This document shows, piece after piece, positions 93 to 29,878 of a stretch of 33,481 nucleotides of DNA. The notes below the pieces were generated by a model. The model did no database searches, was not told the origin of the DNA, and saw only the letters and a program-made list of their open reading frames with translations. The position numbers and the translations under genes were made by a program. The stretch spans positions 1 through 33,481 of the forward strand of contig JAILZY010000033.1 of the NCBI GenBank assembly GCA_023512255.1, in the 5' to 3' direction. The first letter of the stretch is position 1, and each line of letters opens with the position of its first letter. The stretch comes from a bacterium (GTDB lineage: Bacteria > SZUA-182 > DTGQ01).

Positions 93-764
93 CTAAATTC
101 CGAGCAGTAGCAGGGTGGTTGTTGAAATGCCGCCGCCACCGAGCAACAAAGCCGTGGTCGTGCCGATTGTGGTGGTGGTGGTTGGCAGAAGAGTAGTTGT
201 CGTGGTGGTAGTCGGCAGCAGCCCAAGCAGAGCCAGCGTGGTCAGAGAGCCTGTACCAATAGTGGGGGTAGTAGTAGGAACAGTAGTAGGAACAGTGGTA
301 GTTGTGGTGGTAGTTGGGACAGTACCGAGCAGAAAAGCTGTGGTCAGACCAGGGAAAGCAGTGGTAACTGTTGGGGTAGTGGTAACTGTTGGGACTAAGG
401 TTGGAGCTAAGGTAGCTAAGGCAGTTGCTGGTAAGGTAATGGTAATAGTAGCCGGAGCAGTCGGCACCAGGGTGGTAATGCTCAATCCAGCAGGAGTGAC
501 GGCTGGAACTGTGGGGGCAGGAGTAAGAGCAGTCAGTAAGGTAGAAGTGGTGGTTAGAACATGCGGCCCTCGATAAGGACCTACAGGAGCTGCGGGCAGT
601 GGTGGAGGAAAGGGGAGATATCCATAGGAGAAAGGCCCTGCATAATATGGTCCAAAGGGCCCGATGTAGCCGAACTGAGCATTCGCTTTAGGGTTGAGAA
701 TAGTTAATACTGAAATTAAGATACTGAAAATAATTATCCCTTTTAAAATTTTTCTCTTTGCCAT
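93..764 (-). CDS. Exported threonine-rich low-complexity protein
   Basis: No known function is recognised. Starting at base 764 the protein has 223 residues: a Lys/Arg-rich N-terminus, a hydrophobic segment at residues 8-23 and a signal-peptidase-like ANA site near residue 29. Next comes a short Gly/Tyr/Phe/Pro-rich stretch (about 30-60), then a tail dominated by Thr, Pro, Ala, Val and Leu. The tail includes two related units of roughly 35 residues, each with an LLG-type motif, a run of seven Thr and a TIG motif. I chose base 764 over an upstream in-frame ATG at 782 because GGGAGG lies six bases before it. Such composition suggests an extracellular or cell-surface structural protein; Thr runs could be glycosylated, which is inference. 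A long Val-rich frame on the opposite strand is only a by-product of the Thr codons. Confidence 0.72.
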   Translation of the reverse strand: MAKRKILKGIIIFSILISVLTILNPKANAQFGYIGPFGPYYAGPFSYGYLPFPPPLPAAPVGPYRGPHVLTTTSTLLTALTPAPTVPAVTPAGLSITTLVPTAPATITITLPATALATLAPTLVPTVTTTPTVTTAFPGLTTAFLLGTVPTTTTTTTVPTTVPTTTPTIGTGSLTTLALLGLLPTTTTTTTLLPTTTTTIGTTTALLLGGGGISTTTLLLLGI

Positions 765-22557: not shown

Positions 22558-22604
22558 TTAAGAATCGATCCTAAGCCGTTTTAAGAATCCAATCCTAATC
22601 CGTT
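22558..22604. repeat. Tandem duplication over the larC stop codon
   Basis: A 23 bp unit (22558-22580) and a 24 bp unit (22581-22604) are near identical, both opening TTAAGAATC. The second contains the stop and final codons of larC (minus strand). Confidence 0.85.
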
Positions 22605-23794
22605 CGCAGTATATCATCCGATATTGATTTTATGGCCGCTTGGTAGATTTCCTTCAACGGACGATTAGTCTTGAGAGCGATTTTTCGACAGTCTTCGTAT
22701 TCTGGGGAAGCAGTAACAATCTGGCCGTTTAATCTGCCGACCTTGATTTTGAGCGGGCCAAAGGGTGAGGAGACAGAAATTATTTCTCTTGGCAGGGTTT
22801 TTCTCCAGCTCTCTTTGATTCGGATACCTAGGGTTGAGGTTTCTTGAAAGATGACCGAGCACAGCTCATCGATCAGGGAAGTGGGGGCAAGGACGCTGAG
22901 GCGGATAGCTGGCCGGTTTTTTTTCATGATAATGGGAATGAGGGCCACATCCAGGGCTCCGGCTGATAGGAGCCGGGCCATGAGATAATCATAGATTTCC
23001 GGATTTAGGTCGTCAATATCGGTCTCTAGGATCGATATTTGCTCTAAGTGCCACTCAGGGACGCTGCTCCCCATGACTACCCGCAGGAGATTTGGTATCT
23101 GGGCCAGATCCCTGCTTCCAGCGCCATAGCCTGTCTTTTGGATGGATAGGGCGGGCATAGGGCCAAAACCTGAAGCCAGGGTGGAGATGATGGCTGCGCC
23201 CGTAGGGGTAGTGAGCTCCTGGGGGATGCCGGTTGAGTATACCGGGACAGTAGCGAGGAGCTCCAGGGTGGCTGGAGCAGGCACAGGGAGGGTGCCATGT
23301 TGGGTCTGGACAAAGCCGGTACCAAGATTTAGGGGAGATGAGAAAATTTGGTCAATGCCAAGAGCCTTGATTCCCAGCACCGCACCAACGATATCGACCA
23401 CTGAGTCTAAATAGCCAAGCTCATGGAAGTGAACCTCCTCAATGCTCTGGCCGTGAACTTTGGCTTCAGCTCGGGCCAGGGCAGTGAAAATACGAAGGCT
23501 TAAGCCGCGGACCTCCTCTGAAAGAGGGCTGTGCTGAATGAGATCGACAAAATCCTGTAGGGTCCTTCGGGGATGGGAAGATAGATCTGATGATGACTCT
23601 GGCAGGCAAACCTTAATGAGCGTACCGCTAAGACCTGCCCGGGCAACGGATTGCGGCTCAAGGACTAATCCCTTCAGAGGAATGGACCGCAGTTGTTCGC
23701 TCAGCCACTCGATATCAAGCCCCACCTCTTTGAGCGCGCCCAGAATCATATCGCCACTGATACCGCAATAGCAGTCAAAGTAGAGAATTTTCAA
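22595..23794 (-). CDS. larC: Nickel-pincer cofactor nickel-insertion protein LarC
   Basis: This 399-residue protein inserts nickel into the pyridinium bisthiocarboxylate mononucleotide, the last step of the nickel-pincer cofactor first found in lactate racemase. Conserved stretches are YFDCYCGISGDMILGAL at the N-terminus, EVHFHELGYLDSVVDIVG, TPTGAAII, and in the second half ETDIDDLNPEIYDY and TLGIRI. In Lactobacillus plantarum larC is split and read by frameshift; here it is one frame. The start is TTG, well supported by GAGGAG eight bases upstream. It lies 24 bp after larB on the same strand. larE and larA are not in the window. Confidence 0.94.
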   Translation of the reverse strand: MKILYFDCYCGISGDMILGALKEVGLDIEWLSEQLRSIPLKGLVLEPQSVARAGLSGTLIKVCLPESSSDLSSHPRRTLQDFVDLIQHSPLSEEVRGLSLRIFTALARAEAKVHGQSIEEVHFHELGYLDSVVDIVGAVLGIKALGIDQIFSSPLNLGTGFVQTQHGTLPVPAPATLELLATVPVYSTGIPQELTTPTGAAIISTLASGFGPMPALSIQKTGYGAGSRDLAQIPNLLRVVMGSSVPEWHLEQISILETDIDDLNPEIYDYLMARLLSAGALDVALIPIIMKKNRPAIRLSVLAPTSLIDELCSVIFQETSTLGIRIKESWRKTLPREIISVSSPFGPLKIKVGRLNGQIVTASPEYEDCRKIALKTNRPLKEIYQAAIKSISDDILRTD

Positions 23795-23818
23795 GCCTTA
23801 TCTCCTCTTCTTTTGTCT

Positions 23819-24607
23819 TCACCTTGCCTCATAGCTCATTTCGGAACTATTATCTGATGGCTTATCCAGGCTATTAATAAGATGGGCGATACATCCCGCA
23901 GAGTAGCCATTGTCGATGTTGACCACAGCCACCCCACCCACACAACTGTTTAACATGGTCAGAAGGGCAGCCACGCCTCCAAAACTTGCTCCATAGCCAA
24001 TACTAGTAGGAACAGCAATGACAGGCTTATTAACCAGCCCTCCGACTACACTGGCCAAAGCACCCTCCATTCCAGCTACGACTATAATTACCCTGGCCTG
24101 ATCAAAAAGGTGCTGGTGATCAAGCAGTCGGTGGATGCCAGCTACCCCGACATCAAAGAGGCTGCTTACCCGACTGCCAAAGACTTGAGCCGTGATGGCG
24201 GCCTCCTGGGCCACAGAGATATCAGCCGTTCCGGCTGACAAAACCAAAACCTGCCCAGTGAGCGGCCGCGGCTCATCCTGAACCACGATCATCCTAGCCT
24301 GCGGGTAAAACGTGGCTTGAGGAGCAATCGAGCAAATGGCCTCGTAAATCTCCTGATTGGCCTTGGTGGCCAGAAGGGTTGAATGAGCAGCGATTATTCT
24401 GCGGGCAATCTGCACAATCTGCTCAAGGGACTTACCAGGACAAAAGATTGCCTCCGGAAATCCCCGACGAAGCCATCGGTGATGGTCCAGCTTGGCAAAA
24501 GCAAGATCCTCATAGGGGAGATTTTTGAGCTCATTTAGGGCCTGATCAAGGCTAATAGCTCCCTTTTGAAGAGCTTCTAAGATAGTTCGAATGTATGTAG
24601 GATTCAT
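23819..24607 (-). CDS. larB: Nickel-pincer cofactor carboxylase/hydrolase LarB
   Basis: This 262-residue protein carboxylates nicotinic acid adenine dinucleotide and cleaves its pyrophosphate to give pyridinium-3,5-biscarboxylate mononucleotide, the first step of the nickel-pincer cofactor pathway. The N-terminal part has LDHHRWLRRGFPEAIFCPGK. The C-terminal AIR-carboxylase-like domain has SAGTADISVAQEAA, DVGVAGIHRL, VAGMEGALASVVGGL and a PTSIGYGASFGG loop, then NSCVGGVAVVNIDNG. No ribosome site precedes the ATG; a near-consensus promoter ends five bases before it, so the message is probably leaderless. It is followed by larC. Confidence 0.95.
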   Translation of the reverse strand: MNPTYIRTILEALQKGAISLDQALNELKNLPYEDLAFAKLDHHRWLRRGFPEAIFCPGKSLEQIVQIARRIIAAHSTLLATKANQEIYEAICSIAPQATFYPQARMIVVQDEPRPLTGQVLVLSAGTADISVAQEAAITAQVFGSRVSSLFDVGVAGIHRLLDHQHLFDQARVIIVVAGMEGALASVVGGLVNKPVIAVPTSIGYGASFGGVAALLTMLNSCVGGVAVVNIDNGYSAGCIAHLINSLDKPSDNSSEMSYEAR

Positions 24608-24792: not shown

Positions 24793-25473
24793 TTACAGCA
24801 GCCGGCCAGTTTTGATACTGTATGCCTGCGAGGGGCAAACGATCAGATGATCGTGTAGAACGATGTTGAATTCCGAAGCCAGGCTATCTATTCTCTGAGT
24901 CATGTACTGATCTTGTTCAGAAGGGATAGCTCGACCGCTGGGGTGATTGTGAACGAGAATCATAGCCGTGGCATTATGCAGCAAAGCTGGTCTGAAGATC
25001 TCCCTGGGGTAGACTGGAGCCTGATCTACGGTCCCCTCCACCAGGATTTCATGGTGAACCAGCCGATTGGCCGCGTTCAGGCAAAGAACCATCAGACACT
25101 CTCGCTGACTGGCTCCGATAGCCAAGCGAACAAAATCTGCCACATCTTCGGGTGAGGAAATGGCATCAGCCCTCTCTGCCTTTTGCTCCAGGTAGCGGGT
25201 CATAACAGCTCGGATGGAGATTAAGAACGTGGCCACTGATGGCCCTATGCCAGAGAGAGTTTGCAGCTTTTCCGCAGGTTGATCGAACACGGCGGCGAAG
25301 TTACCGAAGGTGGCGATTAGCTCTTTAGCGATGAGTTTGGTATCCTTGCGGGGAATGGCATAAGAGAGAAGCAGCTCCAGAAGTTCATAATCGGCCAGAG
25401 AAGAGCGTCCGTTTTTTAAAAAACGCTCTCGCAACCTTGCCCTGTGACCAATATGGGAATCCGAGATGTTCAT
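24793..25473 (-). CDS. radC: RadC/JAMM-domain protein
   Basis: This 226-residue protein has an N-terminal UPF0758-type region with helix-hairpin-helix motif LSGIGPSVA and a C-terminal JAMM (MPN+) metalloprotease fold with VHNHPSGRAIPSEQD, the zinc-binding HxH...D motif. The name comes from an old link to DNA repair; its true role in cells is uncertain, and many relatives sit in mobile islands. Here the setting is ordinary chromosome. A weak AGGA precedes the ATG. Length is the family norm. It is followed by three hairpins and then larB. Confidence 0.94.
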   Translation of the reverse strand: MNISDSHIGHRARLRERFLKNGRSSLADYELLELLLSYAIPRKDTKLIAKELIATFGNFAAVFDQPAEKLQTLSGIGPSVATFLISIRAVMTRYLEQKAERADAISSPEDVADFVRLAIGASQRECLMVLCLNAANRLVHHEILVEGTVDQAPVYPREIFRPALLHNATAMILVHNHPSGRAIPSEQDQYMTQRIDSLASEFNIVLHDHLIVCPSQAYSIKTGRLL

Positions 25474-25581: not shown

Positions 25582-25640
25582 CAAGAGCAATAAAGACTTA
25601 GTTTATATTTCAAGAGCGATAAATATTTAGTTTACATTTT
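25582..25640. repeat. 29 bp tandem duplication
   Basis: Units at 25582-25610 and 25611-25639 match at about 25 of 29 bases, both beginning CAAGAGC. The second copy supplies the TTTACA -35 box of the next promoter; the first has TTTATA at that place. Confidence 0.85.
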
Positions 25641-25723: not shown

Positions 25724-26464
25724 ATGATTTCAAGGAAGAAGAAAATCAGGAGAAAAAAATATCTGGCTAGCTCCCAGACTGCCCTATTAATCAAGCCAGA
25801 GAGCAGATTTTCGATCAGCGCCGCCGCCGAGTATGCCGGAGGAAAAATCACCGGGGAGGAGGTTTCTAAGAATATGGAAATAGAGCATATTTACTATCAG
25901 AAGGGAGGGCAGGGGGGTGAGATTAAAATGCCTGCCCCAGGACCAGCGCTTTACGAAGACCAGAGTCAATCAAGAGAGGCAAAAATATCAGATAAAGCAG
26001 AGCCCAAAATTTCAGAGAAAGCCGATCAGACCTTGAATATCCGCGAGAGCAGAATTGCCGATTCTCTGCTCATGCAGCTTGAGGATGAGGTTATCGGCTT
26101 CATCAACCGCCGGCTTGAAGAGCATGTAGTGAAGAGAATCAAGGGCTTGCTAGTTCCCGTGGCCAAATTGTCCCTCAAGGTGCGCAAGCTGCGGAAAACA
26201 CTTTCTGATGAGGCAGCCGAATATCTCACTGATCTTGAGGATGATCTGGATTATATTCTGGAAAGCAGCAAGGTAGAGCGGATTTCCCCACAGGTTGGTG
26301 AAAAATTCGACCCTAATCTTCATGAAGAGGTCGATTTCGCCTGGGACCCCGATCAGGAGGAAGCCAAAATCCTGGCTACGGTGAGGGATGGATTTTTCTG
26401 GGAATACAATCGGGAGATGATCATTAAACCTCAGGTAGTGGTCAACAGGAGGTTGTCAGCATGA
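25724..26464 (+). CDS. GrpE-like protein (putative nucleotide exchange factor)
   Basis: A 246-residue divergent GrpE-like protein. The best evidence is the C-terminal beta domain: VGEKFDPNLHEEV at 191-203, as in GrpE's 'G-x-x-FDP-x-x-HEAV', then DGFFWEYNREMIIKPQVVVN at 222-241, matching GrpE's 'GY..-RPA-V-V' ending. Residues about 105-185 are predicted helical, as expected for the dimerising stalk. The N-terminus is unusual: a Lys/Arg-rich start (RKKKIRRKK), then about 70 low-complexity residues. I chose the ATG at 25724, with GGAG seven bases away. Its stop overlaps the start of the Hsp70 gene by four bases, the strongest context support. Without a database search the assignment stays moderate. 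Confidence 0.72.
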   Translation: MISRKKKIRRKKYLASSQTALLIKPESRFSISAAAEYAGGKITGEEVSKNMEIEHIYYQKGGQGGEIKMPAPGPALYEDQSQSREAKISDKAEPKISEKADQTLNIRESRIADSLLMQLEDEVIGFINRRLEEHVVKRIKGLLVPVAKLSLKVRKLRKTLSDEAAEYLTDLEDDLDYILESSKVERISPQVGEKFDPNLHEEVDFAWDPDQEEAKILATVRDGFFWEYNREMIIKPQVVVNRRLSA

Positions 26465-27975
26465 AGATTGGCCTTGACTTTGGTACCTCAAACACCGTGG
26501 TCGCTTACCTGGAAAACCGCACGCCAGCGGTTATGAAGTTCACCTACGGGGGAGTGGTTAGGGATGTCTTCCCTTCGGTTTCATTTTATCCTCACGGTGA
26601 GGCCAGGGGGGTACATGGGCTTGAGGCTCTGGAGTGTGCCTTCAGAAAACCGGGCACGCTGATTCGCTCTCTTAAGCGAAGCCTGAGAAATTATTATCCA
26701 GGTCTGCAAATTCAGGAGGGAGAATTTAAATGGGAAGTCAAAGATTTGCTGGTTGATTTTCTTAAAATTCTTAGGGAAACCATTGTTTCCACCCAGCACC
26801 TTGGGAGCGAAGAGCTCGAAGCCCTGCTGACTGTGCCAGCCAATGCCAATGGCGCCCAGCGATTTGTTACCCGGCAGGCCTTTCGTGAGGCAGGCTTCAC
26901 TGTCCTGCCTCGGATGATTGATGAGCCGACAGCTTCAGCCATCGAATTTTCATATTCCGGTCTGTCTGATCGGCTGTCTGTCCGGGGCAAGCCTGTCTAT
27001 GTCCTGGTCTACGATCTTGGAGGGGGCACCTTTGATGTTTCGCTGGTCCGAATCGAGCCACAGCGCTATACGGTTATTGCCTCGGCTGGAATTGAGCGGC
27101 TCGGGGGGGATGATTTCGACCGCTGCCTATATCAGATGGTCATTGAAAGCCGGCAACTTCAGGCTCTGTCTCCTTTGCAGGAAAAACTGCTGCTTCACCG
27201 ATGTTGCGAAGCCAAGGAGTCCTTGTCCAATATTATTGATCCCAAATATGTGCGGATTGATCTGGAAGAGGCCAGGATCGGTGAGGGAGCGGTCAGACTG
27301 CGGGTTGAAGACTACTATGAGCGGATCCTTCCCTTGGTCAATCAGACCCTACTAAAGCTAGAAGAGGTGCTGCATTCAGAGGCGGCGCGGGCCGAGGGGA
27401 TCAGCAGCCTTGCTCAGATCGAGAAAATTTACCTGGTCGGAGGAAGCTCCCGGCTCCCTTTGATCTTGAGGCGAGTGCAGGAAAAATATGGCCAGGACAA
27501 GGTGCATCTGTCAAGTCTCCCCTTTGCCTCCATAGCGCTTGGCGCCTGTCATATGGCTCAGGAGAAGATTGAAGTGGAGCAGGTCTTGAGCCGGACCTTT
27601 GGGGTAATCAGAACCTGCGGGGGCCGGGAATATTTTGATCCGATCTTTGAGAAGGGGACCAAGATCCCTGCGGTCAAGCGGTTTGAAATCTCCCCTGAGC
27701 ACAACATCGGCCACTATCGGTATCTAGAATGTGTTGAGCACCGCGATGGTCAGGCGATCTCGCCCCGGATGTGGAGTGAGATTTTCTTCCCCTACGATCC
27801 TGACTGGGACCTGTCTCGACTGCCACAGTCGGCTGATATTGAGATCAAGCAGTATGGATCTGGGGGCAGTAAGGTGATCGAGGAGTTTTCCTGTGATGAA
27901 AATGGCCTTATCACTGTAAATCTTATCCGGCAGGCCGATTCTTTATCCATAAAGTATGAAATCTGGCCGCAGTGA
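26461..27975 (+). CDS. Short Hsp70/DnaK-like chaperone lacking the helical lid
   Basis: A 504-residue Hsp70. The ATPase domain covers about 1-370: IGLDFGTSNT at 3-12, DEPTASA at 154-160, YDLGGGTFDVSL at 184-195 and VGGSSRLP at 326-333, with K72 and T190 where DnaK has its catalytic Lys and Thr. The usual hydrophobic linker (DVLLLD) is replaced by VEQVLSRTF. A short beta-rich substrate domain follows (about 375-504) with a KGTKIPAVK segment, and the protein ends where DnaK's roughly 100-residue helical lid would begin. Normal DnaK has about 610-640 residues. AGGAGG precedes the start, which overlaps the GrpE-like gene. It is probably not the main DnaK; client proteins are unknown. Confidence 0.9.
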   Translation: MKIGLDFGTSNTVVAYLENRTPAVMKFTYGGVVRDVFPSVSFYPHGEARGVHGLEALECAFRKPGTLIRSLKRSLRNYYPGLQIQEGEFKWEVKDLLVDFLKILRETIVSTQHLGSEELEALLTVPANANGAQRFVTRQAFREAGFTVLPRMIDEPTASAIEFSYSGLSDRLSVRGKPVYVLVYDLGGGTFDVSLVRIEPQRYTVIASAGIERLGGDDFDRCLYQMVIESRQLQALSPLQEKLLLHRCCEAKESLSNIIDPKYVRIDLEEARIGEGAVRLRVEDYYERILPLVNQTLLKLEEVLHSEAARAEGISSLAQIEKIYLVGGSSRLPLILRRVQEKYGQDKVHLSSLPFASIALGACHMAQEKIEVEQVLSRTFGVIRTCGGREYFDPIFEKGTKIPAVKRFEISPEHNIGHYRYLECVEHRDGQAISPRMWSEIFFPYDPDWDLSRLPQSADIEIKQYGSGGSKVIEEFSCDENGLITVNLIRQADSLSIKYEIWPQ

Positions 27976-28016
27976 GAGAGTCTGGGTTTAATGCAGTGAG
28001 AGAGCCTGGGTTTAAT
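27969..28016. repeat. 24 bp tandem duplication over the hsp70 stop codon
   Basis: Units at 27969-27992 and 27993-28016 differ by one base. The first includes the last codons and stop of the Hsp70 gene. Two further partial copies of CTGAGAGAGTC follow at about 28029 and 28043. Confidence 0.93.
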
Positions 28017-28077
28017 AATCATTGCGCGCTGAGAGAGTCGCACTGAGAGAGTCTGGAGAAAAGAGCGAAAAATGCAG

Positions 28078-28117
28078 GGCTTGCCCCTATCAGTTATGGC
28101 TTGCCCCTATCAGTTAT
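28078..28117. repeat. 20 bp perfect tandem duplication over the HD-GYP stop codon
   Basis: GGCTTGCCCCTATCAGTTAT is present at 28078-28097 and 28098-28117. The second copy contains the HD-GYP gene's stop codon (minus strand, 28110-28112). Confidence 0.95.
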
Positions 28118-29396
28118 CTAGGCAGGGGCTGCCTGTGCATTTTTTCTCTGGGAAATTATGGCAATAGAGGGGGATGTTCCGAAAGGTTTTATTCCAGTTT
28201 CTGGCTAGCTCTTCCAGGGAGGAGTTGCGCTCCTCGGACTCTTTTTCCCAGATTTTGAGATTTTCCTCTAGGCATTTTTCCAGCAGCTCAATGGCTCTGG
28301 GCAGGATAATCCTAGGCTTACTTCCCCCATTGCCGCCGCAGTTTTGGTGCTTAAACTCTGCCAGGGCATCGGTTAGGCTTAAGATTTTTTCCTTGGGTTT
28401 GTAATATCTCCATGAGGTCATGGCATCGAAGCAGTCAGCCAGAATAAGAATACTCAAAGCGAGGTCTATCTCTCCTCGGCCCTTGTGATAGTAGCCCAGG
28501 CCGTCGCACCGCTCATGATGATTGGTAATTAGCCGCAGCACCTGCGGGCTGATATTCACCATGTCCAGAAGCTTGTAGGCATAGAAGGGATGTCGTTTGA
28601 TTTCCCGATATTCCGCTTCAGTAACTCGGCCCGGTTTGTTGAGGATGCCGTCAGGGATACTGATTTTACCCACGTCATGCAGCTCGGCAGCCAGGATGAG
28701 ATTATCGGCATCCTCCTCTTGGAAATCCGGCTCATGCTCTTCGAGAGCCTTTTGGCTGATGGCCCTTACATATTTGGTTACAAAATCAGCATGCATGTAG
28801 GAGTAGATGTCCTTGGCCTCAAGTGCCTTCAGGAAGGCTTTTTTGATATTTTCACCCTGCTCGGCCTGGAGTTTGAAGATTAAGAACTTGTTAAAGATTT
28901 TGCTGATGTAGTATAGATCTCGCCACTGATTTTCGACCTCAAAGTCATACCCTGTTTTCTTTTCACAGGCGAAAAACAGCATTCCCTTTTTCTGGCTGGT
29001 GGCATCGCAGATGGCAAAGAAGCCATACACAAAGTTGATGAACTGATTATTAATGATTACCTGATCCTCATCAGGGAAGCAGAAGGGAATGTGGGGCAGA
29101 TCATCTCCCAGCCCCTCTGGAAGGTTTTGGACCATATGGAAGCTGGTTTGATTCTTAAAGTTGTAGAGAGTCCGAACCCTTTGTTCCCATGGTAGATAAC
29201 TGGCATCGAACGGTAGGTACTGAGTTTGACCCTGCTGGTCGGTTTGGATAAAAAAGCCAGCTTTCAGGTGGAAAAATTTACGTCCGATCCGATCGACTCT
29301 GGCCAAAAAGTCCTGCATCGAGGTCTTGTAGTAATCTACGTCAGTGTATAATTCCTTGAGAATCTCATAAAATTCAGTGCCATTGAACTGATCCAC
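28110..29396 (-). CDS. GAF-like/HD-GYP protein, probable cyclic di-GMP phosphodiesterase
   Basis: A 428-residue cytoplasmic protein. Residues about 25-180 look like a GAF-type sensor domain. The HD-GYP domain (about 195-350) has HD at 240-241 in LHDVGKISIPDGILNKPG, H269, HHE at 293-295, DGLG at 298-301 and D321. The signature reads GYY rather than GYP (301-303). HD-GYP proteins hydrolyse cyclic di-GMP; the metal ligands are kept, so activity is plausible. The C-terminus ends in a small Cys-rich tail (C at about 411, 420, 425). Start is GTG behind GAGGGTAGG. It lies 71 bp after a receiver-only regulator on the same strand, probably in one operon. Confidence 0.87.
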   Translation of the reverse strand: MDQFNGTEFYEILKELYTDVDYYKTSMQDFLARVDRIGRKFFHLKAGFFIQTDQQGQTQYLPFDASYLPWEQRVRTLYNFKNQTSFHMVQNLPEGLGDDLPHIPFCFPDEDQVIINNQFINFVYGFFAICDATSQKKGMLFFACEKKTGYDFEVENQWRDLYYISKIFNKFLIFKLQAEQGENIKKAFLKALEAKDIYSYMHADFVTKYVRAISQKALEEHEPDFQEEDADNLILAAELHDVGKISIPDGILNKPGRVTEAEYREIKRHPFYAYKLLDMVNISPQVLRLITNHHERCDGLGYYHKGRGEIDLALSILILADCFDAMTSWRYYKPKEKILSLTDALAEFKHQNCGGNGGSKPRIILPRAIELLEKCLEENLKIWEKESEERNSSLEELARNWNKTFRNIPLYCHNFPEKKCTGSPCLDN

Positions 29397-29467
29397 AAAA
29401 GCCTACCCTCACTGTCGCCTCTAGCCTGTTTGTGTCCACAAGCCGAATCGCACGACTCAAACTTTTG

Positions 29468-29878
29468 TTAAGCGGATTGCTTCTCGGAAATGTATTTGAG
29501 CATATTTTCCTTTTGAAATGACTTATTGAACAGGGGACAGTCAATTTTCTTGGCCGCGTCCTCAATCCATGGGTCCTCCCAGGAGCTCATGAGAATGACC
29601 TTATCAAGCATCTCCTTATTCTGACCCCACTTTTCAGCGACGTAGATAATCCCATAGGGTCCGACATATTCTTCTCTTGTGCCCATTTTCTGGGCAAGCT
29701 TTTTGGACCGGCAAATAACATCCATGATAATGATGTCATTATTTTCGATCTGACCGATCTTATCATCCATTTCATCAAGATCATTAATTACAACGACATT
29801 ATTGCCCATCTTCTCTAGATCATTCTCCATGGCTTTAGATAATTGGACATCATCATCGAACAACAATATAGATGCCAT
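29468..29878 (-). CDS. Receiver-only response regulator
   Basis: A 136-residue single-domain CheY-like protein. The acidic pocket is D8-D10, the phosphoacceptor is D53 (IIIMDVIC), the switch Ser is near 98-99 and the conserved Lys is K119. It has no output domain, so it must act on a partner; the HD-GYP protein encoded just downstream is the obvious candidate, a split version of the common REC-HD-GYP fusion. An insertion of about 20 residues after the phosphorylation site is unusual. AGGAGG lies eight bases before the ATG. No histidine kinase is in the window. Confidence 0.82.
   Translation of the reverse strand: MASILLFDDDVQLSKAMENDLEKMGNNVVVINDLDEMDDKIGQIENNDIIIMDVICRSKKLAQKMGTREEYVGPYGIIYVAEKWGQNKEMLDKVILMSSWEDPWIEDAAKKIDCPLFNKSFQKENMLKYISEKQSA

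Follow-up and report, generated by a model that had tools for sequence, protein, structure and literature searches.

A lidless Hsp70 paired with a divergent GrpE-like protein that carries a conserved basic tail

The locus and the two proteins

The DNA analysed here (the window) is a stretch of 33,481 nucleotides and forms part of contig C12 of a draft genome of 3.83 Mb. Genomes are referred to by code, G000 being the source genome (that of the window organism) and G000–G003 the genomes of its family, with C numbers for contigs and L numbers for loci. The genes for a GrpE-like protein and for an Hsp70 without a helical lid lie in tandem (Table 1). The first is preceded by a ribosome-binding site (GAGGAGAG), and its stop codon and the start codon of hsp70 share the sequence ATGA, so that the coordinates and the four-base overlap reported in the first-pass annotation were confirmed. 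Ahead of the pair lie two direct repeats of 29 bp, of which no further copies were found elsewhere in the G000 genome and which are a possible candidate for an operator or promoter element; a CIRCE heat-shock element was looked for within the window and none was found. The divergent neighbour radC is not claimed to be part of the machine. Adjoining it are larC and larB, genes for the nickel-pincer cofactor (22595–24607), and at the other end of the locus three short tandem duplications (units of 24, 14 and 20 bp; 27969–28117) lie at or just after the hsp70 stop codon. Further downstream, on the opposite strand (28110–29878), are genes for an HD-domain protein and a degenerate response-regulator-like protein, neighbours that are also present in G001 and not in G002.

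Table 1. Features of the locus (nucleotide positions are those of the window; residues are those of the protein concerned)
Feature	Position	Strand	Remarks
radC, divergent neighbour upstream	24793..25473	-	Same placement in 4/4 family genomes
Two 29-bp direct repeats	25582..25639	+	Single copy in G001, at the corresponding position
GrpE-like gene, 246 aa	25724..26464	+	ATG at 25724, stop ends at 26464
GrpE-like protein, basic tail	residues 1-27, 25724..25804	+	MISRKKKIRRKKYLASSQTALLIKPES; conserved
GrpE-like protein, unconstrained linker	residues about 28-104 (77 residues)		Variable length (four-genome alignment)
GrpE-like protein, helical region	residues about 105-181		Conserved, RIADSLLMQLEDEV...KRIKGLLVPVAKLSLKV (four-genome alignment)
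GrpE-like protein, beta-wing domain	residues about 182-246		Conserved, GEKFDPNLHEEVDFAW...GFFWEYN..MIIKPQV (four-genome alignment)
Lidless Hsp70 gene, 504 aa	26461..27975	+	ATG at 26461, stop ends at 27975
Hsp70, nucleotide-binding domain (NBD)	26467..27552	+	All ATPase residues and the P143/R151 switch
Hsp70, replaced interdomain linker EVEQVLSRTFG	residues 371-381, 27571..27603	+	DnaK counterpart VLLLDVTPLSLG
Hsp70, SBD-beta, no lid	27598..27972	+	Signature PxHNIGx[FY]R[YF]xEC

The Hsp70 matched the Pfam profile PF00012 over the ATPase domain only (profile positions 2–370 of 599). Residues D8, T11, K70, E171, D194, T199 and D201 (DnaK numbering) are invariant among the four family members, as they are in the relatives that have no GrpE-like gene (59 of 59), and the same holds for the allosteric pair P143/R151. 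An AlphaFold2 model built from six sequences (mean pLDDT 72) aligned along its whole length with the NBD and SBD-beta of DnaK (E 1.4e-30, TM-score 0.74), which identifies the C-terminal 130 residues as SBD-beta by fold, and no residue of the window Hsp70 aligned with the SBD-alpha lid of DnaK (508–605). Profile, alignment and model are thus in agreement with the first-pass description of an Hsp70 with all ATPase motifs, a replaced linker, a beta domain and no helical lid. Loss of the lid by frameshift was considered and rejected, as the C-terminal end is the same throughout the family and the solo relatives described below are also lidless. The signature motif of the SBD-beta lies in the loop corresponding to L3,4 and neither M404 nor A429, the arch residues of DnaK, is retained; the suggestion is that the client or ligand of this protein differs from the general hydrophobic segments bound by DnaK. 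Against the NCBIfam HscA equivalog the window Hsp70 scored 160.6 bits, below the cut-off of 708.55.

The product of the upstream gene had been called a divergent GrpE-like protein and the profile search keeps it inside GrpE: it scored 40.7 bits against PF01025 (cut-off 25.8, E=2.6e-10), although the match spans only profile positions 64–163 of 165, and all four orthologues score above the cut-off. A profile–profile comparison of the four proteins with the single GrpE of E. coli was not significant (the alignments were tiny), whereas the Pfam comparison was. The portion that best matches GrpE is the beta-wing, where the motif GEKFDPNLHEEV aligns with FDPxxHExV of canonical GrpEs. The helical region, which contacts the NBD in the DnaK–GrpE complex, is strongly diverged from that of canonical GrpE: the coiled-coil motif AExxNxRRR (E. 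coli L63–R75 region) is not kept, with LEDEVIGFINRR in its place, and by alignment there are about 7 residues fewer ahead of the four-helix region. The AlphaFold2 model is poor (pLDDT 44) and shows helices at 110–159 and 162–181; a fold search with this model, for which it is of too low a quality, gave no match. The N-termini are basic in all four orthologues and include the top K/R densities among 84 ORF starts, whereas those of the canonical GrpEs compared are mostly acidic or mixed. In the four-genome alignment the basic tail of the window protein reads MISRKKKIRRKKYL, and the tails mix hydrophobic and basic residues (IRRKKYL, VRRKRFF, IKRKQIL, MRRRKII), a combination of the kind preferred in peptide segments by DnaK-like SBDs.

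Conservation of the pair, solo relatives and the chaperones of the genome

All four family genomes have retained the pair; in three the genes overlap by 4 bp and in the fourth a gap of 2 nt separates them. The Hsp70 of G003 is split across two contig ends. Identities within the family are 82, 70 and 65–67% for the Hsp70 and 69, 62 and 62% for the GrpE-like protein and, as the synonymous sites are near saturation, retention in four of four genomes is not due to chance. A check on co-occurrence and neighbours, proposed in the first-pass annotation, thus found the pair in every family genome with radC beside it; the genes downstream differ between genera, from which the conserved unit is the two genes. 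The pair is absent from G004–G008, which belong to the same order and class, and the divergent GrpE-like gene is in every case coupled with that for the lidless Hsp70, being missing from genomes of that order and class that do not have this Hsp70. Two of the family genomes, G002 and G003, correspond to the public MAG contigs DAOURK010000039.1 and JAUWIR010000074.1, labelled as Pseudomonadota bacterium isolates CSMAG_150 and CSMAG_2299 respectively. Between G000 and G001 dN/dS (by the Nei–Gojobori method) is about 0.10 for hsp70, 0.11 for the core of the GrpE-like protein and about 0.10 for its tail, the last figure resting on few codons (27), while in the linker even nonsynonymous sites have diverged freely (dN 0.93). 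The basic tail is therefore under the same purifying selection as the core and the linker between them is unconstrained, so that the basic N-terminus noted in the first-pass annotation is real, conserved and selected.

Relatives of the Hsp70 were found by a search with the SBD-beta alignment, which gave 78 further loci (L054–L131), mostly in Acidobacteriota, and one gene in G088, from another phylum; an exact peptide scan of the contigs with the whole Hsp70 gave no match. A tree that also included DnaK, HscA, YegD and the zinc-ribbon Hsp70 clustered the window Hsp70 with these lidless HNIG proteins (support 94/70), a placement to be read with caution as the branches are long; the window Hsp70 has the PxHNIGx[FY]R[YF] loop, the RxFG linker and the lidless C-terminus of that family. 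This unnamed family (about 500–560 aa), for which no dedicated model was found in Pfam or NCBIfam, has the same architecture, linker type and signature loop as the window Hsp70, but its members are usually solo genes. A six-frame search for GrpE at full sensitivity, in which every paired control was found, gave no match near the G088 gene or at a single one of the 78 loci, some of which have short flanks. A gene similar to those for calcium/proton exchangers comes next at about 13 of the loci. Since acquisition by a single lineage requires fewer steps than repeated loss, comparison of these loci suggests that the GrpE-like gene was a later, lineage-specific addition to a lidless Hsp70. The GrpE-like protein had no match when 52 genomes from the phylum to which G088 belongs were searched, which is weak evidence as that set contains no positive. 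No relative of the GrpE-like protein was found in the viral contigs scanned and neither protein matched the PADLOC anti-phage models, so that an origin from phage or in defence is unsupported.

The first-pass annotation had noted that no dnaJ is nearby, and no J-domain gene was found on contig C12. It had also suggested looking for a full chaperone set elsewhere, which is present on C3, where dnaK, grpE and dnaJ lie in a row; the window Hsp70 is thus not the only Hsp70 of this organism. A second, ordinary grpE lies on C114 and further J-domain genes lie on other contigs. In 97 genomes of some 93 families the number of GrpE genes is mostly 1, the highest counts being 5 in G001 and 4 in G000, both of the window's genus, with 0–3 in the other 95 genomes searched. 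The GrpE paralogues of this lineage are often beside or near an Hsp70 paralogue, as with a 590-aa Hsp70 that is found with a GrpE in G001 and G003. G000 also has a second non-canonical chaperone operon (G000:C52:168-6415, L042), in which a 788-aa Hsp70 with a zinc ribbon after the ATPase domain is followed by genes for LysM/zinc-ribbon, TPR and J-like proteins, the last of 88 aa and lacking the HPD motif, and then by one for a divergent GrpE (46 bits); the Hsp70, LysM, TPR and GrpE-like genes of this operon are conserved in G001, and parts of it are found in G003 and G004.

GrpE and J-protein dependence and comparison with known systems

Hsp70s that are clients of GrpE are recognized by a long IIB hairpin (276–302) with a signature at 290–295 (PMC10825016; PMC8215388) and by the salt bridges K55–E267 and R56–E264, the lack of which makes HscA release ADP about 700-fold faster (PMC8215388). 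In the paired Hsp70s both bridges are absent (L–C and E–H in four of four) and the signature is gapped, so that by the rules derived from DnaK and HscA the protein should neither need nor bind GrpE. The hairpin of the window Hsp70 is 2 residues shorter than that of DnaK and 8 longer than that of HscA (segment 41 against 39 in 55 of 58 solo relatives, 2 longer). Substitutions specific to the paired family lean to the GrpE-contact regions, to an extent that is not significant (odds ratio about 2, p 0.06–0.12). What is odd is that a private GrpE accompanies an Hsp70 without the known features of GrpE dependence.

Three of the positions compared, Y145, D148 and D393, we take to be J-domain contacts. 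In all four family Hsp70s Y145 is replaced by N and D148 by G, and D393, which falls in the replaced linker, reads Q/Q/P/Q. R167, which together with L391 directly contacts the HPD motif (PMC8215388), reads R/R/Q/Q and is thus lost in two of the four. Most J-domain contacts of the paired Hsp70 therefore appear to be lost.

The DnaK–GrpE systems of E. coli, Geobacillus and M. tuberculosis have in common with the window pair the NBD fold, the ATPase residues, the SBD-beta and the GrpE beta-wing, and the principle of exchange is probably shared. Compared with DnaK, however, the window Hsp70 has a different linker, a gapped 290–295 signature and few of the J-domain contacts, and it is without the lid, the VLLLD motif and the cleft salt bridges; its partner differs from canonical GrpE in its basic tail, its long free linker and the divergence of its helical region. 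Specialized Hsp70s without the GrpE signature are known in HscA and HscC, and HscA and most HscCs also lack the cleft salt bridges (PMC8215388). In these respects they resemble the window Hsp70, but they have retained the lid as well as a dedicated J-protein and lack a GrpE, whereas in the window pair the arrangement is reversed, with a dedicated GrpE-like gene and no J-protein gene nearby. YegD of E. coli (450 aa) is likewise short and its J-domain contacts are not conserved, but it forms its own long branch in the tree, the window-type linker and SBD do not align with it and K70 is not conserved in the alignment.

A second Hsp70 together with a second GrpE gene is also found in Myxococcus xanthus, as SglK–GrpS (MXAN_6671/MXAN_6672; adjacency is inferred from the locus tags). 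SglK is of the DnaK type (PRK00290) and complements E. coli dnaK, while GrpS has been reported not to be required for viability and its partner has yet to be settled (PMC8265645, PMC10313047); the window Hsp70, in contrast to SglK, is lidless and distant from DnaK. Secondary Hsp70–GrpE pairs occur also in G020, G024, G042, G047, G089 and G090. At the G047 locus (G047:C136, L132, 361-2677), from an unrelated lineage, the gene for a lidless Hsp70 (531 aa) with a short hairpin (segment 37) overlaps that for a divergent GrpE (41.2 bits), but this Hsp70 lies far nearer to DnaK (411.8 bits against PF00012) and the GrpE tail is not basic, and by comparison the G047 pair appears to be of independent origin. 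Secondary Hsp70–GrpE pairing is thus known in kind and the window pair is a variant of it with unusual features. The first-pass suggestion of an undescribed system was too strong, given that solo genes for the lidless Hsp70 are widespread and that secondary pairs exist elsewhere, one of them lidless, with sglK/grpS as a further case by locus tags.

A proposed two-component machine and its alternatives

On balance, and with only moderate confidence, we lean to the view that the two proteins form a dedicated Hsp70 machine, independent of a J-protein, in which the exchange factor has diverged along with its Hsp70. Binding and hydrolysis of ATP would shift the SBD-beta between states that bind a limited range of clients weakly or more tightly; in the absence of a lid these clients would exchange fast. 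A dimer of the GrpE-like protein would bind the NBD through the beta-wing and the co-diverged helical region, open the cleft and so release ADP, doing for the paired Hsp70 alone what GrpE does for DnaK. With most J-domain contact residues lost, no J-protein would be expected to drive hydrolysis. The selected basic tail, on its free linker of ~77 residues, would reach the SBD or a cellular anchor. The tail of E. coli GrpE binds the substrate groove of DnaK through an IIM motif (PMC12915176), although a review regards such binding of tail to groove as not directly seen (PMC12987570); by analogy the basic tail may plausibly be a docking element or a pseudo-substrate or tethering arm, there being no lid in the way. 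Of the dedicated exchange factor in a specialized pair that the first-pass annotation had proposed, the pair stands well, by its conservation, translational coupling and purifying selection, but the exchange role is one that we infer and the published criteria predict no dependence on GrpE.

In favour of an exchange machine are the Pfam match and the beta-wing motif, the intact ATPase residues and P143/R151 switch, a hairpin longer than that of the solo relatives, the non-significant lean of substitutions to GrpE-contact regions and the secondary Hsp70s of other lineages that have a GrpE paralogue beside them. It counts against an exchange machine that, with the cleft salt bridges absent, an exchange factor is perhaps unneeded; the gapped 290–295 signature, the loss of AExxNxRRR, the poor model of the GrpE-like protein with no fold match and the solo relatives, which manage with no such gene nearby, count against it as well. 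A possible, if somewhat unlikely, alternative is that the GrpE fold serves as a targeting or docking subunit, which holds the NBD while its tail brings the Hsp70 to membrane, nucleic acid or ribosome or plugs the substrate groove, exchange itself being spontaneous; that the GrpE-like protein would in this way take the role that a J-protein has for HscA and HscC is put forward just as tentatively. The loss of the bridges, of the GrpE signature and of most J-domain contacts fits this alternative, as do the strong divergence of the helical region and a tail that is selected while the linker is free, and basic where the GrpEs compared are mostly acidic or mixed. It is less easily reconciled with the beta-wing, which contacts the NBD in GrpE and is still the part that matches GrpE best, and we know of no bacterial GrpE whose main task is other than exchange. 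A related idea, which we think rather doubtful, is that the GrpE-derived protein selects the client site or location for an Hsp70 that is not expected to need an exchange factor, its basic, hydrophobic-tipped tail filling the lidless groove or anchoring the Hsp70 and so replacing both lid and J-protein.

It is improbable that the target of the GrpE-like protein is the general DnaK or some other Hsp70 of the cell and that its gene adjoins that of the lidless Hsp70 only through shared regulation: the genome does have a canonical DnaK and GrpE paralogues are numerous in the lineage, but a canonical grpE already lies beside dnaK, and the divergent gene tracks the lidless Hsp70 in every family genome and is missing where that Hsp70 is missing in the same order and class. 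Both proteins are very divergent and the lid is missing, as they might be if a truncated Hsp70 and a degenerating copy of GrpE were decaying without function. We give this almost no credence, as dN/dS is about 0.1 for both genes, the ATPase residues are invariant, the C-terminal end is the same across the family and lidless solo relatives exist; as far as can be judged from sequence, the pattern of selection refutes it.

The pair is a mirror image of the view held of HscA and HscC, in which the J-protein was kept and the exchange factor dropped (PMC8215388): here there is a private GrpE, no J-protein gene lies nearby and the J-domain contacts are mostly lost. With two small proteins it becomes testable whether the GrpE signature and the salt bridges predict the use of GrpE, and the pair would likewise allow the role of the N-terminal tail of GrpE to be tested on an Hsp70 that has no lid.
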